From Candidatus Thiodiazotropha endoloripes (GTDB taxonomy: Bacteria; Pseudomonadota; Gammaproteobacteria; Chromatiales; Chromatiaceae): a stretch of DNA of 64,000 nt. Within the stretch, counting starts at the first letter, position 1; the number at the start of each line of letters is the position of its first letter. The position numbers and the translations under genes are program-made. Under the pieces are notes generated by a model. The model searched no databases. It saw only the letters and a list, made by a program, of their open reading frames with translations, and was not told the origin of the DNA. The stretch is taken from the NCBI RefSeq assembly GCF_001708965.1, contig NZ_LVJW01000006.1, positions 1,302,001-1,366,000 of the forward strand, given 5' to 3'. Of the stretch, positions 15,400 to 30,340 are shown in pieces.

Positions 15400-16119
15400 A
15401 TGACTCGGGAACAAAAAATTGGTTGCACCATTGGTGCACTCGCAGGAATCACACCGTTGCTGGTGAGTCTGGTCAGTGTGGATGCCTCGCTGATCGTCAA
15501 GGTGCTTGTTCCGGCGATTATTATCGGATATGTGATCAAGGCGGCCGGTCTGATGGCGTTGGGGGCGTTTGTGGTGTTTGTCAATTCAGAGCGTGATTAC
15601 AAGAAGGCCTTTCAGCTGGGTCTGATGGCCCCGGCCCTGGTGGTCGGTGCATTGAATGCGAATAATTTCAACGAGGCGAATCTGGAGATCAATGAACTGC
15701 AGACTGAGCTGGGTGAGCGTGAGTCGGTTGCCATCGAGCCGCCACAGAGCACCTCCTCCATGATTGAGGGCGTACTGTCATTCTTTATCGGCAGCGCCCA
15801 CGCCGATGAACACATGATGATCGGTAGACACGACAGCCCCTCCACCGGCAACCTGATCTGGTACGGAATCTCCGGAAAGATCTCAAACGCCTGGTTTGTG
15901 ATTGTCGGTTCCCATGATCAACAAAGGGATGCGGTAAGACAGGCGGAGGGCCTTAAGAAACGGGGCTACAACGCAAGGGTGGTGCCGGATGTGAAAGACG
16001 AGGAGAGTTTTGTTGTCTCAATCGGCTCCTATCTGAATATCAAAGAGGCCAAGGCGCTGCACAAAACCGCCATCCGGGAGAACCTGGCGAGACATCCCTA
16101 TTTGTGGAAGTGGAAATAA
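15400..16119 (+). CDS. Membrane protein with SPOR-like C-terminal domain
   Basis: A 239-residue protein of unrecognised family, start ATG with a GGAGAA ribosome site. The first 95 residues hold three hydrophobic segments (about 10-32, 36-60, 70-85), then a region rich in Glu and Asn and a second hydrophobic stretch near SFFIGSAHA at about 128. The C-terminal part (about 160-235) resembles a SPOR fold: AWFVIVGSHDQQRDAVRQAE, KKRGYNARVV, then SFVVSIGSYLNIKEAKAL. SPOR domains bind denuded peptidoglycan glycans at the septum. That function is inferred here. The gene stands alone between divergent and convergent neighbours. Confidence 0.55.
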   Translation: MTREQKIGCTIGALAGITPLLVSLVSVDASLIVKVLVPAIIIGYVIKAAGLMALGAFVVFVNSERDYKKAFQLGLMAPALVVGALNANNFNEANLEINELQTELGERESVAIEPPQSTSSMIEGVLSFFIGSAHADEHMMIGRHDSPSTGNLIWYGISGKISNAWFVIVGSHDQQRDAVRQAEGLKKRGYNARVVPDVKDEESFVVSIGSYLNIKEAKALHKTAIRENLARHPYLWKWK

Positions 16120-16207: not shown

Positions 16208-19200
16208 TTATGGCCGGTTAACAACAAGTCTTGATGCGGCAATCATCCCCAGCAGCGCAGCCATCAACAGCAGACCCCAGTGAGGCATCACCGGGATCGC
16301 GACCGGTTCGTAGGTGACATTCAGATCCGCCGTACCGGGAGTTGGATTACTGCCGAGATCGGTGGTCAGCCCGCCAACCGGGATGGTGTTGGTATAGAGG
16401 TTGACCACGCTCGAGGTGACATCGACAGCGATGGTGCAGCCGCCGGGCTGTATACTTGCCCCATTCTGATAGACCAGGCTGTTGCCACCGGCAATCGCCA
16501 CCACGTTGGCCAGGGTGCAGCCTGCACTGACCTGTATGTTGGGTACCGGAGCCACCAGCAGATCCGCAGGAAAGCTATCGGTCAGATCACCGGTCAATAC
16601 GGCCGCGACCGCATTGCTGTTGCTCAGCGTGATGGTCAGAGTAGCGATCCCATCCGGTCTGATGCTGTTCGGTGTGATGCTCTTGCTCAGTCCCGGCAGT
16701 ATCGGTGTCACCGTCAGATCGCTGGAGCTGGCGACAATGTTGTTGCCAATATCGGTCTGCAGACCATTGATCGGAATCGTGTTGGTGTGAGTGGCCAGTG
16801 CAACGGAGGTGACGTCCACACTGATCGAACAACCGCCGTTGGCGGGAATGGTTGCACCACTGAGATAGGTCAGGGTATTGCCGCCCGGTGCAGCCACCAC
16901 ACTGCCCAGATCGCAACCGGCGGATGCCTGGATATTGGGGGTGGCGGCGATCTCCACCCCAGCCGGCAGGTTATCTACCAGATCGGCGGTCAAGGTGGCC
17001 ACCGTTGCATTGCCGTTGCCGAAGGCGATCGACAGGGTCGACAGGCCGCCGGAAGAGATGGTGGTCGGTGAGAACTGCTTACTGACACTCGGCGGCTGGG
17101 GCGGATTGACGAACAGATCGGCGCTGCTGGGCGCTCCGTTGTTACCCAGATCGGTCTGCAGGTCACCCGCAGCGAATGTGTTGGTCCAGGGGCCGCCGGA
17201 GACACTTGAGGAGATATCCACCGCAATCGAACAGCCGCCGGAAGGTATTGTCGAGCCATTGGTATAGGTAACGCTGCTGACGGTGGTCTGAACCGTTCCC
17301 GGGCAGTCGGTGAGCAGATTGACCGGGGTGGCCAGCTCGGTGTTGGCCGGCAGGTTGTCGACCAGGTCGGCCCCCAGGGTTGCCGCCATGGCGTTGTCGT
17401 TACCCAGGGTGATGGTCAGTCTCGAGGCCTCACCCGGATTGATGGTGATCGGCGTGATCGATTTGCTCAGGGTGGGTGGCATCGGTGCAGTGACAATCAG
17501 GCTGGCGGTTGCCGGTTGGGGATTGCTGCCACCGGTGGCCGTGGAGAGGTCCCCTGCCGCGATGGTGTTGTTGTAGCTGCCCGCGCTGGCCGAAGTGACA
17601 TCCACCACGATGCTACAGCTGACCGGAGGGATGAGGGCACCATTGGCGTAGATGACCTGACTGCTGCCGGGTGTGGCGGTGACACTGCCCAGCACACAAC
17701 TGCCTGCCAGGTTGTTGGGATTGGCGATCACTACGCCGGCTGGCAGGTTGTCGGTGAAATCCGCATCCAGGGTCAGATCGGTGGCGTTCGGGTTCTCCAG
17801 GGTCAGGGTCAGGGTGGAGATGCCGTTGACGTCGATGGTGGTCGGTGCAAAGGCTTTGGTGATTCCCGGTGCGGCATCGAACAGCGCGCCGACCCCGAGG
17901 GTAGCGACCGCAGGCTGAGGGTTGTTGCCGGCGGAAGTCGTCATCTGCCCGGCGGCGATGGTGTTGACGTAGCTACCATCCAGTGCCGAGGTGACATCCA
18001 CCGAAATGGTACAGCCTCCGGCCGGAATCGTGGCGCCATTGGCATAACTGATCTGGATGTCTCCCGGGGTGGCGGTGACCACACCCGGACAGGTGGTGAC
18101 CAGGCCGTTCGGGGTCTCCACCAACACATCCCCGGGTAGCGCATCCACCAGTTCACTGGTGAGGGTGATCGGGTCGGTGTTGGCGTTACCCAGAGAGATG
18201 GTCAGGGTCGAAGTGCCGTTGGTATTGATCGATGCAGGTGCGAAAGCCTTGCTGACAGACGGTGCCGAGAGTACTTCCAGGTCCGCATTGGCCGGTGCCG
18301 GATTGCTCACGCCCTGATCGGTGGTGATGGCATTGGCGCCAACCGTATTGGTCAACGTGCCGGTGGTATTCGCAGCCACATCGGCACTGAAGGTACAGCT
18401 GCCACTGGCGGGTATGGTGGCGCCGGTGATGGTAATTTCGTTGTCACCCGCGGTGGCCAGTACGCTGGCATCGGCACAGGTGGTCGCCGTACTCGGGGCT
18501 GAATAGACTGTTACACCGGTGGGTAGCGTATCGGTGAGTGACGTACCGGTGAGATCGATCGCCGAGTTGTTGGTGATCGTCACCGTCAGGGTGGAGCGTT
18601 CACCGATCGTCACCGTAGCCGGAGCAAAGGCTTTTGCCACCGTCGGCTCAAGAATCACATTCAATTCCGCAGAGACATCCTCGCCATTGGTCACGCCCTG
18701 ATCGGTGGTGATCGCATTCTGCAGAATCAGATTGTCATAGACACCCACCAGAGGTGCAGTGACATCCACTTCGATCAGACAGGCGGTACCTGGCAGCAGG
18801 GTGCCGCCGGAGATGGTCAGTGCCTGGGTGGTGGTGTTGACTGTCAGTGTGGCATCGGCACAGGTGGTGGCGGCATTGGGTACAGCCGCGAACTCCAGGC
18901 CTGCTGGCAATGGATCGGTAAAACTGACGCTGGTCAGGGTGACCGGCGAGACCGCATTCGGATCGAAGGTACTGATCAGTTCCAGGATCAGACGGGCCGT
19001 GCCGCCTGGCGGGATATAGGCAGGCGCGAAGCCTTTGGTCAGTCCCAGGCCCTGCAGGGTGGAGAGGGAGGCCTGGGTTCCCAGGGCATTGGTATAGCCC
19101 TCTTCACTGGAGATCACCCCGGCGGGAATGAAGTTGGTCAGATTGAGAAAGCGTAACGATGTGGTGGTGACAAACACCTGACAGATGTCATTGGGCTGCA

Positions 19201-22123
19201 GGGTGGCGCCTACCATGGAGACGCTGCCCGCACCAGCGACCGCAGTCACCGTGCCGCCGAGACAGTTGGTGCTGGCATCCGGTACCGGATAGACCACGAT
19301 GCCTTCGGGGAAGATGTCGGTAAAGGCCACATCGTGGATGGTTGCGCCGGAGCTGTTGATCACATCGATGGTCAGTAGTGAGGGCTGACCGCCGGTGACG
19401 ATGATTGGATTGAAGGCCTTGTTGATGCCGATATCGGCAACCGCCGAGGTCAGCGTGGCGGTGATCGGTGAACTGTTGGACGAGCCTTCCGCACTACTTA
19501 TGTTGCCGGCCGGAATGGTGTTGCTCCAGGGACCAGCACCACTGGTGGTGACATCGAAGGCAAAGTCACAGTTGGCCCCGGCCGGCAGGGTAACGCCCTG
19601 CAGCTGAGCGCTGCTGGCGCCCGGATTGACGATCAGGGTGGTGGCGCCGCCACAGGAGGTGCTGGCATTGGCCGGATTGGCCACGCTCAGACCGGCGGAG
19701 AAGGTGCTGTCGTCGATGCTGACGTTGGTCAGCTCACCGGAGGAGATATTGACCACGTTGATGGTGACCCGGGAGCGGCCTCCGGAGCTCACGCTGGTCG
19801 GACTGAAACTCTTGCTGCCAGTGATCCCCGCCGTGATGGTCAGGGTATCGGATACCGCAGAAGGAATGGTGCCGCCACTGCTGCTGAAATCTGCCGGATT
19901 GATGGTGTTCAGGTAAGTGTTTGGGGTGGAGCCGGTGACTTGCACGCGGATCTGACAGGTGGCCTGAATCTGGTCATCGGGTCGCGGACTGAGGCTGCCG
20001 CCGGTGAGGATCAGTGTCGTATCCCCGGGGAAAGCCTGCAACGTGCCGCCGCACTCATTGACGGCGGCCGGATTGGCCGCCAGGGCGAGACCGGCGGGTA
20101 GGTTGTCTGTCAGATTGACTGCAGTAAGCGGATTCAGGGTACGGTTGCGGATACGCAGTCTGAGGGTGGATGTCTGGCCCTCAGCAATGGGGTTCTGGAG
20201 GAAATTTTTGGTCACCTCCACAGAATCGAGTGTCGCCACATTGACCGCCGGGCTGGGGGATGGATTGACCACATTGCCGCCTGGGCCATTACCCGTTCCG
20301 CCAACCCCGTTGACGCCGTCCCAACTGGGGATCTGGTTGGTGAAGATCATGCCCAGGGTGGCGGTGACCGGCAGTCGTGCCCGGAAGACCAGGGTACAGG
20401 TACCCGGTGTGGCGCCGACACCGGCGGGTACCGTGCCGCCGCTCCAGAGCAGTTCGCTGTCTCCGTCCACACCGGTGTAGACACCGCCGGCACAGGTGTT
20501 GGAGACTGGTATGCCGGCCGAATCGTCGAGTACCATCTGGTTGCCCGCGTTGTTGGGCAGGGTGTCGCGGAAACTCAGGTTGGTGACATCCGCACCGGAC
20601 CAGTTGTTGACGGTGACACTGAAATCGGTCCACTGACCCGGTGCAACCTCGTTGATGGATACGGTTTTATCCACCGTCAGCTGAGCATTGATGTTGATCA
20701 CATCACTGGCTGTCGGACTCGCGTGGCCGGTTGGATTGACCACTGCATCAGCCGGGATGGTGTTGGTGTGGGCGCCATCGGTGGTGGAGGTCACATAGGC
20801 AGTGATCGTACATTTGCCGTTGACCCCGGAGCGCACACCCGCCACGGCGCCACTCAGCAGAATGCCGGTGTCGCCCTGATCCAGGGGGTTGCTGCCCGCA
20901 TCGGTCAAGCTGCCATTGACGGAACCGGTCCCATCACAGACCACCGTTGGGTCTGCCGGTGCAACGGTGGAGGTATCGACAATCGACAAGGTGGTGGCGG
21001 TGAGGTCGTCGAGAAAGCTGGTGATCGGCAGTGTGTTGTCGGTGCTGTTGTTGTTGATGACGATGGTCAGCAGAGAGGGCTGCCCGGCTGGAATGGTATC
21101 CGGGTTGAAGGTTTTCGAGAGCGAAATCGGGGTGTTGACGGTCAGGTCCCGGTTGAAAGCAGGGCTGGTCAGGCCACGGGTATTGCCGATCGATCCCAGC
21201 GGCAGGGTATTGCTGAACAACTGGCTGGTGCCGGCGATGGTGGGCACCACCACATCCACCCCGATGGTGCAGTTGCCCGATTCTCCGATGATTCCGCCGG
21301 TCAGGGTTACCGTGTCCGTCCCCGGTGTTGCGGTAACCGCACCATTGGAAGCCCCGGTACCGCTGCAGGCGATCGAGGTATTGGCCGGCGTGGCCACCAC
21401 CATGCCGGCAGGCAAGGTGTCGGTAAATGTGGTCAGTGGCAGGGTTGCGCCGGCATTGGGATTGCTCAGTACGATGCTCAGGGTCGTGGCATCACCGGCG
21501 ATGGCCGGAGATGGGCTGAATGTCTTGTTGCCGGTGGGGTTGAGCAGTGTGCTGACCACCAGGGTGGCGTTGGCCGGAGTCGCATTGGAGACCCGCACGC
21601 CATTTTCAAGTGCCGAATAGCCGGCGGTCACCGCATCGGGTCTGGCTGGCGGCAGCAGCGCGGGAATATTGTTGATGTAGGTGCCTGGCGTGGTGGAGGT
21701 AACGGAGAGTTCGAAAAAGCACTGGCCATCGGTCAGTCCCACCCGTGCCGGGATGGTGCCGTTGGTCAAGACGATGCTCGAAGTGCCTGGCACGGCGGTG
21801 ATCCCGGTAAAACCACAGGTGTTGGTGATGTTGGCCGGGTTGGCGATGGTGATCTGGGGCAGCAGCAGCGAAGTGACTTCCGCCTCGGTCAGGCTGACCA
21901 GGGCGTCGTTGGCAATCTCGATGCGGTAGGTCGGCGTGTCGCCCGGATTGATGGTCGCCGGGTTGAACAGATGGTTGATGGTGGTGGTGGCGGTTGCCAG
22001 ACCAGGCAGCATCAACAGAGTGAGTGCCAAGTAGGCTGGGGGTATCTGGGCGCGGTATCTGTTATGGGATGTTCTGAGGCGATCTATCAGGGCAGAGACG
22101 AAAGACAGGGTGTTTAGATTCAT
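16208..22123 (-). CDS. Giant repeat surface protein with IPTL-CTERM-like sorting tail
   Basis: A 1971-residue secreted protein. An extended N-terminal signal (about 1-46, ending LPGLATATTTINHLF) precedes 14 tandem repeats of about 115-145 residues. Each repeat opens with a motif like SKAFAPATI--G--STLTI-L-N, continues through L-D-LP-GV, has paired Cys, and ends with N-TI-AG-L-T--G--NP-PA. They resemble DUF11-type repeats of cell-surface proteins (DUF7933-like); exact family assignment needs a profile search. The C-terminus VAIPVMPHWGLLLMAALLGM is a hydrophobic helix preceded by IP-x-x-x-HWG and followed by basic residues, close to the IPTLxxWG signal used by exosortase H. The xrtH gene is divergent, 365 bp away, so this is probably its substrate. 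Confidence 0.85.
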   Translation of the reverse strand: MNLNTLSFVSALIDRLRTSHNRYRAQIPPAYLALTLLMLPGLATATTTINHLFNPATINPGDTPTYRIEIANDALVSLTEAEVTSLLLPQITIANPANITNTCGFTGITAVPGTSSIVLTNGTIPARVGLTDGQCFFELSVTSTTPGTYINNIPALLPPARPDAVTAGYSALENGVRVSNATPANATLVVSTLLNPTGNKTFSPSPAIAGDATTLSIVLSNPNAGATLPLTTFTDTLPAGMVVATPANTSIACSGTGASNGAVTATPGTDTVTLTGGIIGESGNCTIGVDVVVPTIAGTSQLFSNTLPLGSIGNTRGLTSPAFNRDLTVNTPISLSKTFNPDTIPAGQPSLLTIVINNNSTDNTLPITSFLDDLTATTLSIVDTSTVAPADPTVVCDGTGSVNGSLTDAGSNPLDQGDTGILLSGAVAGVRSGVNGKCTITAYVTSTTDGAHTNTIPADAVVNPTGHASPTASDVININAQLTVDKTVSINEVAPGQWTDFSVTVNNWSGADVTNLSFRDTLPNNAGNQMVLDDSAGIPVSNTCAGGVYTGVDGDSELLWSGGTVPAGVGATPGTCTLVFRARLPVTATLGMIFTNQIPSWDGVNGVGGTGNGPGGNVVNPSPSPAVNVATLDSVEVTKNFLQNPIAEGQTSTLRLRIRNRTLNPLTAVNLTDNLPAGLALAANPAAVNECGGTLQAFPGDTTLILTGGSLSPRPDDQIQATCQIRVQVTGSTPNTYLNTINPADFSSSGGTIPSAVSDTLTITAGITGSKSFSPTSVSSGGRSRVTINVVNISSGELTNVSIDDSTFSAGLSVANPANASTSCGGATTLIVNPGASSAQLQGVTLPAGANCDFAFDVTTSGAGPWSNTIPAGNISSAEGSSNSSPITATLTSAVADIGINKAFNPIIVTGGQPSLLTIDVINSSGATIHDVAFTDIFPEGIVVYPVPDASTNCLGGTVTAVAGAGSVSMVGATLQPNDICQVFVTTTSLRFLNLTNFIPAGVISSEEGYTNALGTQASLSTLQGLGLTKGFAPAYIPPGGTARLILELISTFDPNAVSPVTLTSVSFTDPLPAGLEFAAVPNAATTCADATLTVNTTTQALTISGGTLLPGTACLIEVDVTAPLVGVYDNLILQNAITTDQGVTNGEDVSAELNVILEPTVAKAFAPATVTIGERSTLTVTITNNSAIDLTGTSLTDTLPTGVTVYSAPSTATTCADASVLATAGDNEITITGATIPASGSCTFSADVAANTTGTLTNTVGANAITTDQGVSNPAPANADLEVLSAPSVSKAFAPASINTNGTSTLTISLGNANTDPITLTSELVDALPGDVLVETPNGLVTTCPGVVTATPGDIQISYANGATIPAGGCTISVDVTSALDGSYVNTIAAGQMTTSAGNNPQPAVATLGVGALFDAAPGITKAFAPTTIDVNGISTLTLTLENPNATDLTLDADFTDNLPAGVVIANPNNLAGSCVLGSVTATPGSSQVIYANGALIPPVSCSIVVDVTSASAGSYNNTIAAGDLSTATGGSNPQPATASLIVTAPMPPTLSKSITPITINPGEASRLTITLGNDNAMAATLGADLVDNLPANTELATPVNLLTDCPGTVQTTVSSVTYTNGSTIPSGGCSIAVDISSSVSGGPWTNTFAAGDLQTDLGNNGAPSSADLFVNPPQPPSVSKQFSPTTISSGGLSTLSIAFGNGNATVATLTADLVDNLPAGVEIAATPNIQASAGCDLGSVVAAPGGNTLTYLSGATIPANGGCSISVDVTSVALATHTNTIPINGLQTDIGNNIVASSSDLTVTPILPGLSKSITPNSIRPDGIATLTITLSNSNAVAAVLTGDLTDSFPADLLVAPVPNIQVSAGCTLANVVAIAGGNSLVYQNGASIQPGGCTIAVDVTSSVVNLYTNTIPVGGLTTDLGSNPTPGTADLNVTYEPVAIPVMPHWGLLLMAALLGMIAASRLVVNRP

Positions 22124-22488
22124 ACAGGATACTCATTTGAACATCCCTGCTATAGATCGTTATTTGGTATTGATGCTTGTGAGCGTCCCAGTCCCTCGAT
22201 TTACCGTGCAAGCAACATGCTAATCGAGCAATATTAAACATCGTAAGAGTGGTTTGCAAAAGCTTAAAATTGTAAATTGTTTTCGGCTTGCCGATCGTGG
22301 CACTCTTGTGTTGAACCCCTGATCGGTTGAAACTGAACAGACCGGCATTCATGGTCTTGCTTCATTCGCTAACAATGTGATCAGCTAGTCATGACAGAAC
22401 CCGCTAGTATGGCTTGTCTCCCGGATGGCCGGACTGACATTGAATAGAGTACATGTTAATACCTTCATTCGATGAAGGCATTTGAATA
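22124..22488. other. Divergent regulatory region for the repeat protein and xrtH (365 bp)
   Basis: This interval must hold promoters for the repeat-protein gene (minus) and for xrtH (plus). A-rich and T-rich runs occur near 22225-22280. The minus strand carries GCTTG and CAAGC arms around a GGGACGC string near 22175-22212, which is only loosely riboswitch-like. I could not define -35/-10 boxes with confidence. A short perfect hairpin lies at its xrtH end (22462-22478). Confidence 0.5.
22462..22478 (+). promoter_or_regulatory. Hairpin overlapping the xrtH ribosome-binding site
   Basis: CCTTCAT (22462-22468) and ATGAAGG (22472-22478) form a perfect 7-bp stem around TCG. The GAAGG at its 3' side is the only Shine-Dalgarno-like string before the xrtH ATG at 22489, so the stem would hide it. 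Control of xrtH translation is inference. Confidence 0.45.
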
Positions 22489-23001
22489 ATGCTTCGATTT
22501 GCACTGCTTTTTACCGCCATTCTCATCGGCCTGTTTACCTTGGAACTGATGCCTTTCGGGCAGCAGTGGGTGGTCATTCCCTTCACCGCCTTTATTGCGA
22601 AAATCAGTGCCTGGCTGATTCAGCTGTTTGATCATGGGGTGCACGCCTACGGGATTGTGCTGCTGGACAAGGCGAGTGGTTTTGCGGTCTCCATCGAGGC
22701 GGGATGCAATGGTATCGAGGCGAGTATCGTACTGATTGCGGCGATGTTCGCCTTCCCAGCGAGTTTGCGGATGAAACTGATCGGGATCGCGATCGGAATC
22801 CTGGCAATCCAGGCGATGAACCTGCTCAGAATCATCAGTCTCTTCTATCTGGGGCAGTGGAATCAGACCGCGTTTGAGTGGGCCCATCTCTACATCTGGC
22901 AGTCACTGATCATACTCGATGTGCTGGTGGTGTTTCTGATCTGGTTGCGCTACCTGCCGAGAGTGAAGCCGCATCACGGGCCTGAGCATGCTTCGGCTTA
23001 G
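22489..23001 (+). CDS. xrtH: Exosortase H
   Basis: A 170-residue polytopic inner-membrane transpeptidase of the exosortase family, matching exosortase H, the short type that pairs with IPTLxxWG-CTERM proteins. Catalytic residues are seen in order: Cys in SIEAGCNGIEASIVL (about residue 69), Arg in AMNLLRIISLFYLG and His in AFEWAHLYIWQSL. About six helices are predicted. It is expected to cut the sorting tail of its substrate at the outer face of the inner membrane. The next gene overlaps its end by 14 bases. The probable substrate gene lies divergently upstream. Confidence 0.88.
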   Translation: MLRFALLFTAILIGLFTLELMPFGQQWVVIPFTAFIAKISAWLIQLFDHGVHAYGIVLLDKASGFAVSIEAGCNGIEASIVLIAAMFAFPASLRMKLIGIAIGILAIQAMNLLRIISLFYLGQWNQTAFEWAHLYIWQSLIILDVLVVFLIWLRYLPRVKPHHGPEHASA

Positions 23002-23611
23002 CTCGATCAACCCGGTCGCCGCCTTCATTATCAAGGTGGTGTTCTGGCTGCCGGTCTGCCTGGCGGGCTGGTACTATCTGGCGCCGAGTCTGGTCTGGCC
23101 TGTGGGGCTACTCAGCGACTGGATTCTGACTGTACTGTTTCCGCAGATCTTCCAGGGGGTCGAGCAGCAGGGGGATCGTCTCGACTTCGTCACCCTGCTG
23201 GCGATGCCGGCTGAGCTGCTGAGAGGTCAGCAGCCCGGGGTCAGCGGTGACCTGGTCTTTACCGTCAATCCACTGCTCTACAGCTACGGTCTACCCCTCT
23301 ATACCGCGCTTTCGATTGCAACACCCGGAGATGCCAGGGATGAGGATCTCAAATGGAACAAATGGCTGTGGGGATTGCCGCTGCTGTTTCTGTTCCAGGT
23401 GTGGGGCGTCTGTTTCGATGGCCTGAAGACACTGCTCTTCACCCTGGGACCGGACGTTTCGGCACAGCTGGCGTTTACCCCCTTGGCGATGGATGGTGTC
23501 GCCCTTGGCTATCAGCTGGGCTATCTGATTCTGCCATCCGTATTGCCGTTGGTGATCTGGGTCGTACAATACCGGGCCTATCTGACCGAGATGGTCTGGG
23601 CCACGGAGTGA
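22988..23611 (+). CDS. Exosortase H-associated membrane protein (putative)
   Basis: A 207-residue membrane protein with about four helices (around 12-34, 40-55, 122-147, 178-198). Its start overlaps xrtH by 14 bases, indicating coupled translation. Its position, length and helix pattern match the membrane protein annotated beside xrtH in several genomes. I do not recognise a catalytic motif. The segment between helices 2 and 3 (QQGDRLDFVTLLAMPAELLR) may lie in the periplasm. A role as accessory partner of the exosortase is inferred from position only. Confidence 0.6.
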   Translation: MLRLSSINPVAAFIIKVVFWLPVCLAGWYYLAPSLVWPVGLLSDWILTVLFPQIFQGVEQQGDRLDFVTLLAMPAELLRGQQPGVSGDLVFTVNPLLYSYGLPLYTALSIATPGDARDEDLKWNKWLWGLPLLFLFQVWGVCFDGLKTLLFTLGPDVSAQLAFTPLAMDGVALGYQLGYLILPSVLPLVIWVVQYRAYLTEMVWATE

Positions 23612-24239: not shown

Positions 24240-25499
24240 ATGGTTCGCCGATTAGTTGGGAGCGTCCGGTCATTTACCGGGCGACTCTTACCGTTGTGGA
24301 TAATTGCGTTGGGAGAGATCTGTGCGACTGAACAGATCACTTCGCCGGCTTTTCAGAATCTGCTGCTTCGTCTGCAGCAGCATCCAACCCTCAGGGTATC
24401 GATGGCGGAGCGTTCCCATTGGCAGGCCAATGCGGATGGCTCAATGGGTCTGCCCGATCCCAACATCACACTGGGTTTGAATAATCTGCCGGTGAATGAA
24501 CCGACCAGCTTCGACCGCTATCTGCCGAGTAGCCGCAGCCTGGAATTCAAGCAGATGATACCCGGTTTGAGCACTCGAGAAACACGGCGGGATAGCCATC
24601 TTGCGCGGGCGGCGCTGGCTGATCTGCAGCGTCAACTGGCGTTCGCTGAACTGGAGTTGAGGTTGGTCACCGCACTGGCGCAACGGCGCAGAATCCATGC
24701 AGCCAATGAGGCGCTGGATCAGCAGATGGCATTGCTGATGGAGCGGGAGCGCTGGTTGAGGGGGGAGATGGCCTCGGGGGCTGCCGTCTACGGCCGGTTC
24801 GATGAGCTGGATGTGAAGCGGGCGGAGATCGATGAACAGAAAATCAGCCTCGCCGGTGAGGCTGAGCGCTGGCAGGCCGAACTGAGATCGTTGATCGATC
24901 TGGTTCCGCCCGAGGGGATTCTGCCGGAGATTCAACCGAAACGCTGGTCGGGTGACCCGCAGGCACTGCTGAAGATTCAGATCGAACTGGGCAGGCTGGC
25001 TGTAGCCAACTCCGAGGTGGCGGAGCGGAATGCCGCTTTCGATTCGGACTATGCGATCAGCGCTGCCTGGCAACAGCGGGAGTCGGGTGAGAATTTCGAT
25101 GGGGATGATTGGTTCACATTGAAATTCAGTGCCACCCTGCCACTCTGGTCCACTGCCAATCAGACGCCGAAACTGAAAGCGGCAGAGGCCAACGTCACCA
25201 AACTGATGGCCCAGCAGGAGCAGCAGCTGAGGGAGCTCACCAGTGACTATCAGAGTGCCCTGTCCAACTACCAAACGGCGCAACGGCTACTCGCTGCCAT
25301 GGCACGGCGTCAGGAGCGCCTTAAGGCCTTGGAAGCTGCCAACCGGCGTCGCTATGAAGCGGGAGACCTGGATCTTGACGGTGTCATCCGACCGGCCCTG
25401 AAACTGGCTGAAGTGGAGCTGGATCTGGCCCGGACAGAGCTGCAGCGAACCATCGCCGCAGCACGTATCAACGCCATGTTTGTGGAGGAGGACCGATGA
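24240..25499 (+). CDS. CusC-like outer membrane efflux protein (TolC family)
   Basis: A 419-residue TolC-family outer-membrane channel component. The N-terminus has a signal region (about 1-33) after a long basic start. The helical segments that form the periplasmic barrel are evident as Ala- and Gln-rich repeats, e.g. QQHPTLRVSMAERSHWQANA and DYQSALSNYQTAQRLLAAMA. The stop overlaps the next gene by four bases (ATGA). Together with the CusB- and CusA-like genes it makes a heavy-metal efflux tripartite system. The protein is shorter than E. coli CusC (about 457). Confidence 0.85.
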   Translation: MVRRLVGSVRSFTGRLLPLWIIALGEICATEQITSPAFQNLLLRLQQHPTLRVSMAERSHWQANADGSMGLPDPNITLGLNNLPVNEPTSFDRYLPSSRSLEFKQMIPGLSTRETRRDSHLARAALADLQRQLAFAELELRLVTALAQRRRIHAANEALDQQMALLMERERWLRGEMASGAAVYGRFDELDVKRAEIDEQKISLAGEAERWQAELRSLIDLVPPEGILPEIQPKRWSGDPQALLKIQIELGRLAVANSEVAERNAAFDSDYAISAAWQQRESGENFDGDDWFTLKFSATLPLWSTANQTPKLKAAEANVTKLMAQQEQQLRELTSDYQSALSNYQTAQRLLAAMARRQERLKALEAANRRRYEAGDLDLDGVIRPALKLAEVELDLARTELQRTIAAARINAMFVEEDR

Positions 25500-27109
25500 G
25501 TTCCATCCGTACAAAAGCAATCTATCCATTACTGCTGTTGATTCTGTTCAGCCACTACAGCTGGGCGGAAGAGGCCACTCAGTACACCTGCCCGATGCAC
25601 CCCCACTACATCGCCACAGACATGGGCAGTTGCCCAATCTGCGGGATGGATCTGGTCGCGCTGGAGACGGCTGGATCGATGCCGTCGGCAGAGACTGAAG
25701 CCGGAGAGCGGGTCGTGGTAACCATTGCCCCGGAAACGATACAGAACATGGGGGTGCGGTACGGCCGGGCGGAGATGACAGCTTTTGGCAGTCGGGTGCG
25801 AGCCTATGGGGTGGTGGCAGAGAGTGAGCGGTTGCGCAGTGAAGTCTCCAGCCGGGTGGCTGGCTGGTTGGAGAGATTGTCGGTCACGGCCGTCGGTGAT
25901 CCGATCAAAAAGGGTGATCTGCTCTATCAACTGTTCAGTCCCGATCTGGTGGCTGCCCAGCGGGACTATGTCAGTGCCTTACAGGGTGGCAACCAACAAC
26001 GTATCCGTTCTGCCGCGGTTCGTCTCGAGGCATTGGGAGTCTCCAAAGGTTTTATAAAGAGTCTGCGCAAGCAGGGCAAGGTTGTCGACCGGGTGCCGTT
26101 TTACGCGGTGACCGATGGTACCTTGAGCGAGCTGCGGGTCAGAGAGGGGGCCTATGTTCGACCGGGTGAGACGTTGGCGGTAATACAGGACTACAGCACC
26201 GTGTGGATCAATGCGGCGGTGGCGGAAAAGGATCTGTCTGAGGTCAGCATGGAAACACCGGTGCAGGTGATTCTGCCAAATCTGCCGGGTCAGGTGATCG
26301 AGAGTCAGATCGACTATATCCACCCCACCGTCGATCCGGACAGCCGCACCGGCCGGGTTCGGCTGGCCCTGTCGAATCAAGCGGGACGGCTGCGCCCCGG
26401 CGCCTATGCGGATGTTCTGTTTGAGATCGATCTGGCGCGTCGGCTGGCTGTTGAGGAGAGTGCTCTGTTGATTGGTGAGACAGGTCCCTATCTGGTGGTG
26501 GCACTGGGTGATGGACGGTTTCAACCCCGCTCGGTTCGAACCGGACGGAGCAGTGGGGGATTTACCGAGATCCTTGAAGGTGTCGACAGTGAGGATCTGA
26601 TCGTTGTCTCAGGGCAATTTCTGATCGACTCCGAAAGTGCCCTCAGGGAGTCGTTTCAAAAGTTGCAGCGTATCAAGTTGGGCTTGGATCAGTTGCCCCT
26701 GAGTCAGCAGCAGCTGGCGATGCTGGATCACATGATCGATGCGGCGCTCTACATCCATGAAGCACTGGTGGATGGCTACGATATCAGCCCGGATCAGCTG
26801 CAACCGGCGCGTGAGATTCGTGATCTGTTATGGCCCGGTTTCGGCGCCACTCGCCTGGGTCCAATCATGCAGGGTGCTGCCGAGGCAATTGAACTGGCCC
26901 AACAGGCACGCACCGAGAGTGCCCTACAGCAGGCGTTGCATCAGTTGGTGAGTGAGCTTCAACCCTGGGTGCTCAACGGTCGTCGGGATCACTATCAACA
27001 GCAGGGTGTGCGGCTCTATCAGGATCAACAGGCGCAACAGCTCTGGCTGCAGCTGGCGGGTGAGCCGGTCAACCCCTATGGTGCTGCTGACGGCGAGTTG
27101 GTCGAGTGA
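25496..27109 (+). CDS. CusB-like RND periplasmic adaptor with heavy-metal-binding domain and C-terminal extension
   Basis: A 537-residue periplasmic adaptor for copper/silver efflux. After a signal peptide (about 1-24) comes a heavy-metal-binding domain with CPMHP and CPICGMDLV (about 33-58), typical of CusB-type adaptors. The adaptor core follows: VSSRVAGWLERLSVTAVGDP (lipoyl-like), an alpha-hairpin, a beta-barrel and a membrane-proximal domain to about 395. Residues about 400-537 form an extra mostly helical region (starting near LPLSQQQLAMLDHMIDAALY), not part of E. coli CusB and reminiscent of DUF3347-type extensions. The gene is coupled to cusC-like by a four-base overlap; the CusA-like gene follows after 30 bp. 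Confidence 0.85.
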   Translation: MSSIRTKAIYPLLLLILFSHYSWAEEATQYTCPMHPHYIATDMGSCPICGMDLVALETAGSMPSAETEAGERVVVTIAPETIQNMGVRYGRAEMTAFGSRVRAYGVVAESERLRSEVSSRVAGWLERLSVTAVGDPIKKGDLLYQLFSPDLVAAQRDYVSALQGGNQQRIRSAAVRLEALGVSKGFIKSLRKQGKVVDRVPFYAVTDGTLSELRVREGAYVRPGETLAVIQDYSTVWINAAVAEKDLSEVSMETPVQVILPNLPGQVIESQIDYIHPTVDPDSRTGRVRLALSNQAGRLRPGAYADVLFEIDLARRLAVEESALLIGETGPYLVVALGDGRFQPRSVRTGRSSGGFTEILEGVDSEDLIVVSGQFLIDSESALRESFQKLQRIKLGLDQLPLSQQQLAMLDHMIDAALYIHEALVDGYDISPDQLQPAREIRDLLWPGFGATRLGPIMQGAAEAIELAQQARTESALQQALHQLVSELQPWVLNGRRDHYQQQGVRLYQDQQAQQLWLQLAGEPVNPYGAADGELVE

Positions 27110-27139
27110 GGTTGTTGAAGATGAATAGAGGAATTACCC

Positions 27140-30100
27140 ATGTCTGAACAGCAATCCATCGTCGGGGATGATCCCGCCCGCTCGTTTGTCGCCAAGGTGA
27201 TCGCCTGGTCGGTGCGGAATCAGTTGATCGTAATGATCTTTACTGCGGGTCTGGCGGTAGCCGGGCTGCTCGCCCTGCAGCGCACCCCGCTCGATGCGAT
27301 ACCCGATCTATCGGATACCCAGGTGATCATTCGCACCGACTTTGCCGGTCAGGCGCCACAGATCGTTGAAGACCTGGTCACCTACCCCCTCTCAGCAACC
27401 TTGTTGGGATTGCCGAAAACCGAGGCGGTGAGGGGATTCTCCATGTTCGGCACCAGCTTCGTCTATGTGATCTTTCAGGATGGGGTTGATGACTACTGGG
27501 CCCGGAGCCGAGTTGCTGAAGCGCTGGCCACGGTGCAGAAGGATCTGCCGCAGAACGCCACCCCGAGACTGGGGCCGGATGCCACCGGGGTGGGCTGGAT
27601 CTACCAATATGCGCTGCTGGATCGTAGCGGCCGACATGACCTGGCGGAGCTGCGTGCCCTGCAGGACTGGTTTCTGCGCTTTGAGCTGGCGACGGTAGCC
27701 GGGGTCTCGGAGGTGGCTTCGGTGGGTGGGTTCGTACGTGAGTATCAGGTGTTGATCGACCCCAACAGACTACGCGCCTTCGATATTCCCCTGGTGCGGG
27801 TGCGCCAGGCGGTTCAGGCAGCCAGTATGGAGGTCGGTGGGCGAGTGATCGAACGGGCCGAGACCGAGCTGATGATCCGCTCCCGGGGCTACATCACTTC
27901 GCTGCAGGATCTTCAGCGGGTGGTGGTGCAGGCGAGAAACGGCACCCCGGTACTGCTGACCGATGTGGCGCGGGTGATCGAAGGTCCGGAGCTGCGCCGG
28001 GGACTGGTGGAGCTGAATGGTGAGGGGGAGGTGGTCGGCGGTATCGTGGTGATGCGCTCCGGTGAGAATGCGCTGAATGTGATCAAGGCTCTGGAGCAGA
28101 AGCTGCAGGCCCTGCAGCAGGGGCTGCCGGCCGGGGTGGAGATTCAGACCGTTTACGATCGAGCGCCACTGATCCGGGGTGCGGTCGACTACCTGAACCA
28201 TAAACTGCTGGAAGAGGGGTTGGTGGTAGCCCTGGTCTGCTTCATCTTTCTGCTCCATGTGCGTTCCGCTTTTGTCGCCATAATCACCTTGCCGCTGGGA
28301 GTGCTGGGGGCGTTCATGGTGATGTCGGCGCAGGGTATCACGGCCAATATCATGTCGCTCGGCGGTATCGCCATCGCGATCGGGGCGATGGTGGATGCCT
28401 CCATTGTGATGGTGGAGAATGCCCACCGGCGGTTGAGCGATATGCCCGGGTCGGTTGGACGCAAAGCGCAAAATGCCGCCATCCTGCAGTCGGCCAAGGA
28501 GGTGGGGCCAGGGCTGTTTTTCAGCCTGCTGATCATTACCGTATCCTTCCTGCCGGTGTTTGCGCTCACCGGTGAAAGTTATCGGTTGTTCTCCCCTCTG
28601 GCCTACACCAAAACCTATGCGATGGCCTTTGCTTCCCTGCTCTCGGTCACCCTGGTGCCGATCCTGATGTTGTGGCTGATCCGAGGACGGATCTTCCGCG
28701 AGGAGAGTAATCCACTGAATCGTTTCTTTGTCGCGCTCTACAAGCCGATTCTGGAGTTTTCCATGAAATGGCGTGTTTTTACCCTGGCCGTTGCCATCGC
28801 CGGTATCGCCAGTCTCTGGTACCCCTACAACAAGCTGGGTACCGAGTTCATGCCGGCGCTGTATGAGGGTGAGCTGCTCTACATGCCCACCACCCTGCCG
28901 GGAGTCTCCATCTCCAAGGCAAAAGAGATTCTGGCCCAGACCAACCGGTTGATCCTTACGCTGCCTGAGGTCGATCAGGTATTCGGCAAGGTGGGTCGGG
29001 CCGATACGGCGACTGATCCGGCACCGATTTCGATGATCGAGAGTTGGATACGCTTGAAACCGAAGCCTGAGTGGCGGCCAGGGATGACTGTGGGGTCGCT
29101 GACCAAGCAGCTTGACGAGCGGGTCAATCTGCCCGGGCTGGTCAACAGCTGGGGTTATCCGATCAAAATCCGCATGGATATGATCTCAACCGGTATCCGC
29201 ACCCCGGTGGGGATTAAGATCTCCGGTCAGGATCTGAATCAGATCGGACGTATCGCACTGGATGTGGAAGCCGTGGTGAAGCAGGTGCCGGGCACCCGCA
29301 GCGCCTTTGCCGACCGGGTCACCGGGGGCAAGTATCTGGAGATCATCCCCAACCGTGATGAGCTGGCGCGACGCAATATCGATCTTGGTCTGTTCCAATC
29401 CATTATCCAGACCGCGCTCGGCGGTATGAAGGTTGCGGAAAGCGTACAGGGAAGGGAGCGTTACAACATCATGTTGCGCTACGACCGGCCATTCCGGGAA
29501 TCGATACATCAGCTCTCGGACATCCTGGTACCAACCCCGGGTGGTATGCACATTCCGCTGGGGGAAGTGGCTACCATCGAATATGCCCCGGGACCGCCGA
29601 TGATCAAATCGGAGGATGCCCGATTGACCGGCTGGGTGTTTGTCGATATCGACGAGCGGGATATCGGCAGTTATGTGGATGAGGCGCGAATGCGGGTTGC
29701 CGAGCAGGTCGACCTGCCACCGGGCTATGCCATCACCTGGTCCGGGCAGTATGAGCAGATGCTTGAAGCGCGGGAACGACTGCAGGTTGCGATACCTGCA
29801 GCCGTTGCGATCATCCTGGTGCTGCTGATGATCCATTTTGGCCGCACCGACCGAACGGTGATGGTGATGACGGCGTTGCCGTTCGGCTTGGTGGGTGGCC
29901 TGTGGGCGGTCTATCTGGCCGGCTACAACCTCTCAGTCGCCGTTGCTGTGGGTTTCATCGCACTGGGAGGCATTGCGGTGGAGACGGCGGTGGTGATGTT
30001 GATCTACATCGATCAGCAGGTACGCCAGCTTCCTCCGGTCGACCATAAAACCCTGTTTGCCGCCATCATGGCGGGCGCGGTACGGCGGGTGCGTCCGAAA

Positions 30101-30340
30101 CTGATGACCGTTTCGGTGATCATCGCCGGTCTGTTACCCATCTTCTTTACCGAGGGGCCCGGTTCGGATGTGATGCGCCGTATTGCCCTGCCGATGGTGG
30201 GCGGGATGCTCAGTACCACCGTCATGACCCTGATCGTGATTCCGGTCATCTATCTGATCTGGGAGTCACGCAGGCTACCCCTCTCGACTGAAAATTCCAC
30301 TGGGGATAACGATCTATCCCAACAACCACAAGAGGTATGA
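27140..30340 (+). CDS. CusA-like heavy-metal efflux RND transporter
   Basis: A 1066-residue proton-driven inner-membrane RND pump of the HME subfamily, expected to export copper(I)/silver(I). It has the family signature at the N-terminus (RTPLDAIPDLSDTQVIIRTD, near residue 50), the GGIAIAIGAMVDASIVMVEN helix-4 segment with the proton-relay Asp, and the second-half equivalent near VAVGFIALGGIAVETAVVML, in which Glu takes the acidic position. The pore domain contains Met residues, but I did not map the three-Met site. Twelve helices and two periplasmic loops are as expected. The stop overlaps the CusF-like gene by four bases. Confidence 0.95.
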   Translation: MSEQQSIVGDDPARSFVAKVIAWSVRNQLIVMIFTAGLAVAGLLALQRTPLDAIPDLSDTQVIIRTDFAGQAPQIVEDLVTYPLSATLLGLPKTEAVRGFSMFGTSFVYVIFQDGVDDYWARSRVAEALATVQKDLPQNATPRLGPDATGVGWIYQYALLDRSGRHDLAELRALQDWFLRFELATVAGVSEVASVGGFVREYQVLIDPNRLRAFDIPLVRVRQAVQAASMEVGGRVIERAETELMIRSRGYITSLQDLQRVVVQARNGTPVLLTDVARVIEGPELRRGLVELNGEGEVVGGIVVMRSGENALNVIKALEQKLQALQQGLPAGVEIQTVYDRAPLIRGAVDYLNHKLLEEGLVVALVCFIFLLHVRSAFVAIITLPLGVLGAFMVMSAQGITANIMSLGGIAIAIGAMVDASIVMVENAHRRLSDMPGSVGRKAQNAAILQSAKEVGPGLFFSLLIITVSFLPVFALTGESYRLFSPLAYTKTYAMAFASLLSVTLVPILMLWLIRGRIFREESNPLNRFFVALYKPILEFSMKWRVFTLAVAIAGIASLWYPYNKLGTEFMPALYEGELLYMPTTLPGVSISKAKEILAQTNRLILTLPEVDQVFGKVGRADTATDPAPISMIESWIRLKPKPEWRPGMTVGSLTKQLDERVNLPGLVNSWGYPIKIRMDMISTGIRTPVGIKISGQDLNQIGRIALDVEAVVKQVPGTRSAFADRVTGGKYLEIIPNRDELARRNIDLGLFQSIIQTALGGMKVAESVQGRERYNIMLRYDRPFRESIHQLSDILVPTPGGMHIPLGEVATIEYAPGPPMIKSEDARLTGWVFVDIDERDIGSYVDEARMRVAEQVDLPPGYAITWSGQYEQMLEARERLQVAIPAAVAIILVLLMIHFGRTDRTVMVMTALPFGLVGGLWAVYLAGYNLSVAVAVGFIALGGIAVETAVVMLIYIDQQVRQLPPVDHKTLFAAIMAGAVRRVRPKLMTVSVIIAGLLPIFFTEGPGSDVMRRIALPMVGGMLSTTVMTLIVIPVIYLIWESRRLPLSTENSTGDNDLSQQPQEV

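Follow-up and report, generated by a model that had tools for sequence, protein, structure and literature searches.

A candidate exosortase H module beside a giant repeat protein in Candidatus Thiodiazotropha endoloripes

We analyzed a 64,000-nucleotide stretch of Candidatus Thiodiazotropha endoloripes DNA (contig NZ_LVJW01000006.1, positions 1,302,001 to 1,366,000; hereafter, the window), in which the genes for exosortase H (XrtH) and its membrane partner (XrtH_assoc) diverge from a gene encoding a 1971-residue repeat protein with an IPTL-CTERM-like tail. We favor the reading that these genes form a compact exosortase H module that probably processes the giant protein, a predicted fibre, with XrtH not being exclusive to it. 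The parts, their family membership, co-occurrence, and linkage, and the purifying selection on them are all read from sequence. The features are as follows, with positions counted within the window.

16208-22123, minus strand: giant predicted surface protein gene, 1971 aa (open reading frame and PF25564 profile)
16208-16297, minus strand: C-terminal sorting signal, IPVMPHWG + hydrophobic helix + basic tail, residues 1943-1971 and stop (TIGR04174 match)
22124-22488, no strand: divergent intergenic region, 365 bp, from the giant gene to xrtH (coordinates)
22489-23001, plus strand: xrtH, exosortase H, 170 aa, with Cys73, Arg114, and His133 (TIGR04177)
22988-23611, plus strand: XrtH-associated membrane protein (XrtH_assoc), 207 aa (NF041730)

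The exosortase and its partner

The genes for XrtH and XrtH_assoc overlap by 14 bases, and both products score well over the curated cut-offs of their families: XrtH matches TIGR04177 with 200.5 bits (cut-off 86), and XrtH_assoc matches NF041730 with 186 bits (cut-off 35). The catalytic residues of exosortases are Cys, Arg, and His, and Cys73, Arg114, and His133 are present in all 81 XrtH sequences of the alignment, that of the window and those of 80 loci (the best 80 of 468). A first-pass annotation, made from the letters of the window alone, had proposed an exosortase H with an intact Cys/Arg/His set and a membrane partner, and these scores and the alignment bear it out; its coordinates, strands, and divergent three-gene layout proved correct on an open reading frame check, and the TIGR04177 score leaves xrtH within the exosortases rather than outside them, an outcome the annotation had also considered. 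The predicted structure of XrtH_assoc has a mean predicted local distance difference test score of 89, and a Foldseek search with this model found no match in the PDB at E ≤ 0.001, which is not evidence for a new fold. No functional study of XrtH was found in a literature search whose coverage excluded most subscription journals. The same genome also encodes two more exosortase-family proteins (G000:C3:979295, L002, and G000:C3:686844, L004) and a PEP-CTERM protein (G000:C3:1381507, L021).

The giant protein and its candidate sorting signal

Read directly, the giant protein ends in IPVMPHWG, a hydrophobic stretch, and basic residues at the extreme C-terminus, with no Pro-Glu-Pro in the tail. 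IPTL_CTERM (TIGR04174, cut-off 20.5) matches this tail at 24.2 bits in the genome search and at 23.9 bits when the last 60 residues are scored, and it is the sole sorting-signal model to pass its own cut-off there. The match is borderline. The first-pass annotation had described an IPTL-CTERM-like tail deviating by V and M in place of T and L; the tail does hit the model, and the deviation is confirmed by the motif being identical in all four relatives inspected (G398-G401).

The rest of the protein is built from 14 DUF7933-type repeats spanning residues 51-1937, with repeat limits that we set ourselves; PF25564 (DUF7933) matches in 14 stretches with a total of 928.1 bits. The N-terminus is signal-peptide-like as judged by eye, and the 28 cysteines fall as one pair in each repeat. 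The Lys-Asp-Asn triad that PMC12617251 describes in isopeptide domains of the DUF7933 family occurs in 13 of the 14 repeats, the exception being the first, which is atypical and has His and Ser instead. By their Pfam match and triad, the repeats thus classify as DUF7933 isopeptide domains, with the bond itself being a prediction.

One tail over the cut-off and the remnant of a candidate second substrate

When the IPTL_CTERM search of the genome was opened to E ≤ 10, eight matches were obtained, and only the tail of the giant protein, whose gene adjoins xrtH, scored over the cut-off. If about 4,000 genes are assumed, such adjacency would arise by chance about 1 time in 2,000. The low-scoring matches include the PEP-CTERM protein (L021), four membrane proteins whose own helices match the model (L022, L024, L025, and L026, which we take to resemble NrfD, NuoJ, FlhA, and NuoN, respectively), and a 31-aa frame (L027); we rejected the first five as substrates. 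The remaining match (L023) is a truncated second candidate substrate.

This second IPTL-tail gene (G000:C6:510382-511164; L018 1633-2418, L028 5380-6165) encodes a 261-aa protein in which a choice-of-anchor U domain scores 42.4 bits against a cut-off of 32; its PIPTLS tail, at 13.5-14 bits, lies below the IPTL_CTERM cut-off. In two close relatives (L173 and L174), the same gene is whole: its 723-aa product begins, as judged by eye, like a signal peptide and ends in an IPTLS-type tail that passes the cut-off at 23.3 bits. A third relative has the gene only as two short frames, with a tail of 21.9 bits, and no match to the protein was found in a fourth. In the genome of the window, the match starts at residue 450 of 723, leaving the first ~449 residues missing, and where the relative has ~2.1 kb, covering the 5′ portion of the gene plus what precedes it, this genome has ~0.2 kb instead. 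With the gene whole in two relatives and 5′-truncated here, the count of one tail looks like the result of a loss, which appears recent since the ratio of nonsynonymous to synonymous substitution rates (dN/dS) of the remnant is still ~0.10. The presence of this candidate substrate in close relatives speaks against XrtH being exclusive to the giant protein, and a dedicated pair is supported only in part.

XrtH, its partner, and its tails across genomes

The four closest XrtH sequences among the best 80 of 468 loci are 93-95% identical to that of the window and come from two Candidatus Thiodiazotropha, a symbiont of the lucinid clam Stewartia floridana, and a Chromatiales metagenome-assembled genome. 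In the XrtH tree, which holds 78 of 81 rows (three were omitted because the matched stretch passed a stop), they form with the window a five-row clade that we call Thiodiazotropha-type. The window is collinear with these loci, at 85-87% identity; in two, this extends over 20 kb, and L031 carries an additional ~1.2 kb beyond the partner gene. Comparisons with two relatives give dN/dS values of 0.05-0.10 for the giant gene (0.086 and 0.097), xrtH, and the partner gene, indicating purifying selection. The giant gene is linked to xrtH in 4/80 loci, all Thiodiazotropha-type, with the copy in L032 cut by the contig end, and an IPTL-type tail gene of any kind lies within the fetched stretch in 6/80 (the giant gene in L029-L031, other proteins in L090, L095, and L107); many of the loci have short flanks, making these linkage counts lower bounds.

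The partner gene adjoins xrtH in 31/80 loci, and a hidden Markov model search of the loci likewise gives 31/80. In the tree, 47 rows without a nearby partner form one well-supported clade, and one further such row is L100, whose right flank measures just 163 bases. We considered whether one XrtH clade lacks the partner and rejected this, as NF041730 is encoded somewhere in 49 of 51 XrtH genomes, outside the fetched stretch; of the 24 genomes in this set that have no partner gene at the xrtH locus, XrtH_assoc is encoded elsewhere in 22. Across 398 genomes of the phylum (three draws, taken as the same sample since the genome handles agree), XrtH, XrtH_assoc, and IPTL-CTERM pass their cut-offs in the same six, and no other genome passes any of the three. 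Matches below the cut-offs occur in six more genomes for TIGR04177 and in one for NF041730; 14 control genomes give a single match, to TIGR04177, also below cut-off. The three-way co-occurrence points to XrtH_assoc as a required part of the system, also in genomes that encode it away from xrtH.

Tail numbers were counted in 50 XrtH genomes (45 loci picked from the 80 and five others, including several incomplete assemblies) as six-frame model matches not individually checked for C-terminal position; in some genomes, only part of the first-look candidates was scored. The IPTL-CTERM matches in the 398 genomes and in the family sample described below are of the same kind. At E ≤ 0.001, there is one match in 11 genomes, two in 12, and at least three in 21, the largest number being 19; thus, 33/50 have at least two. 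A single target is common enough, yet XrtH as a kind tends not to be a one-substrate enzyme.

Proposed mechanism and alternative readings

Our proposal draws in part on the general understanding of exosortases. The giant protein would be exported by Sec until its C-terminal helix arrests it in the inner membrane, whereupon Cys73 of XrtH would attack near IPVMPHWG with the assistance of XrtH_assoc. XrtH would then remove the helix and basic tail and hand the new C-terminus to a hypothetical acceptor, and the giant protein would end on the outside. There, its 14 beta-sandwich repeats may form a long, stiff fibre in which a Lys-Asn isopeptide bond and a disulfide would lock the majority of the repeats, with a likely role in attachment or matrix. 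The sequence of Sec export, helix arrest, Cys attack, and transfer follows the prevailing view of exosortases as set out in passages of one account (PMC12188702). A surface location would fit the proposal, found in part of another source, that the S-layer protein of Methylomirabilis lanthanidiphila is an IPTL-CTERM protein (PMC8671808). Large adhesins of other types are discussed for Thiodiazotropha in a section of a further paper (PMC11171427).

Several observations weigh against a module that processes the giant fibre. The IPTL_CTERM score falls to 16.8 bits, below the cut-off, when the whole giant protein is searched, and the Pfam IPTL-CTERM model gives the tail 19.9 against a cut-off of 20.8. 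On the last 28 residues, VPAMP_CTERM exceeds IPTL_CTERM (23.8 versus 23.0 bits), yet it does not reach the 32 bits that its cut-off requires. The tail has V and M at positions where, among 28 other tails, 26 keep T and 25 keep L, in a set (35 of 39 loci tried, four unresolved) that consists mostly of the best tail per genome and therefore leans to the canonical motif; taken with VM in the four relatives, the near-universal T and L indicate that the change is real and common to the lineage. Regarding a fibrillar adhesin tip, no adhesive head domain was recognized in the giant protein by Pfam at E ≤ 0.1, and the first repeat is the atypical one. Linkage of the giant gene to xrtH is lineage-specific. 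In 6 of the 50 XrtH genomes, no tail was found at E ≤ 0.001, though G402, one of these, has a weaker match still rated as over the cut-off, and 2 of the 51 gave no match to the NF041730 partner. Finally, 45 of 194 sampled family genomes have an IPTL tail match at E ≤ 0.01, among them 2 of the 12 listed under the window's genus (XrtH was not searched in the other ten); the tail is thus patchy.

The borderline whole-protein and Pfam scores, the roughly equal VPAMP_CTERM match (22.5 to 23.8 bits, short of its cut-off), and the presence of two other exosortase-family proteins and a PEP-CTERM protein in the genome would fit a giant protein that is not an XrtH substrate, handled by another exosortase or by none, with accidental adjacency. 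We find this very improbable, as only IPTL_CTERM passes its own cut-off for the tail, the tail lacks Pro-Glu-Pro, and the giant gene adjoins xrtH in relatives as well. The opposite extreme, a dedicated single-substrate pair, was the interpretation of the first-pass annotation, whose suggested genome-wide scan indeed returned one tail over the cut-off. That part stands and, along with the divergent adjacency and the VM motif in the window and four relatives, would suit an XrtH specialized on the giant protein with a pocket matching IPVMPHWG. The exclusivity is not supported: two relatives keep the 723-aa protein with its over-cut-off IPTLS-type tail, the dN/dS of the remnant argues that the second substrate was kept until recently, and XrtH elsewhere tends to serve several proteins. 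A truly dedicated pair is therefore unlikely.

A reading that deserves somewhat more weight, while still the lesser prospect, is that XrtH only cleaves, so that the fibre goes free into the medium or matrix instead of being anchored. No acceptor emerged from the searches in this analysis, and loss of cyanoexosortase B is described, in a portion of PMC12188702, as lowering a PEP-CTERM protein in the exoproteome. Against release stand the frequent occurrence of tandem isopeptide repeats in surface-anchored fibrillar adhesins, as stated in section 2.2 of PMC12617251, and the Methylomirabilis S-layer proposal. We tentatively raise the possibility that in this lineage one giant fibre, locked by isopeptide bonds and disulfides, makes up a minimal self-contained surface-display module together with XrtH and its partner, with the single whole substrate adjacent, possibly for contact with an animal host.

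Genomic surroundings

The 365 bp that separate the giant gene from xrtH have a guanine-cytosine content of 43.3%, compared with 55.2% for the whole window, and a sigma-70-type promoter scan of positions 22000-22600 found none. A search of the window found no tRNA, which, together with flanks that are collinear in relatives, gives no sign of a recent island. Just beyond the end of the giant gene lies a gene for a 239-aa SPOR-domain protein (15400-16119, 25 bits), and to the right of the module are metal efflux genes (24240-30340) of outer-membrane efflux, CusB-like, and CusA/CzcA types.

Comparison with known systems

By sequence, every component belongs to a described family, and the locus is unusually compact. 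Four points deserve to be retained: enzyme, partner, and giant probable substrate are linked; a single substrate remains whole, apparently after a recent loss; the three families co-occur exactly; and the fibre can be read as an isopeptide one. A genome in which a lone XrtH and its partner stand next to their one whole substrate would be a simple case for learning how an exosortase acts on its target.

When compared to midcut-by-XrtH proteins (NF033207), the last 60 residues of the giant protein match part of the model at 28.4 bits, below the cut-off of 45, and the signal here is instead at the extreme C-terminus. The resemblance to CLIPPER/DUF11-type isopeptide fibrillar adhesins (9ifr, B9T28_05395) extends to tandem beta-sandwich stalk repeats, Lys-Asp-Asn triads, and Cys pairs; the differences are that the main repeat here is DUF7933 rather than DUF11, that an exosortase-type tail takes the place of an OmpA-like anchor, and that there is no recognized head domain. 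The third comparison is with the exosortase H/IPTL-CTERM system itself (TIGR04177, TIGR04174, and NF041730), with which the locus shares all three components, the catalytic residues, and the layout of the tail. The locus departs from that system in having VM for TL, one over-cut-off tail in the genome, and a giant substrate gene divergent from xrtH, an arrangement seen in 4/80 loci, all Thiodiazotropha-type, where any linked tail gene is found in just 6/80.
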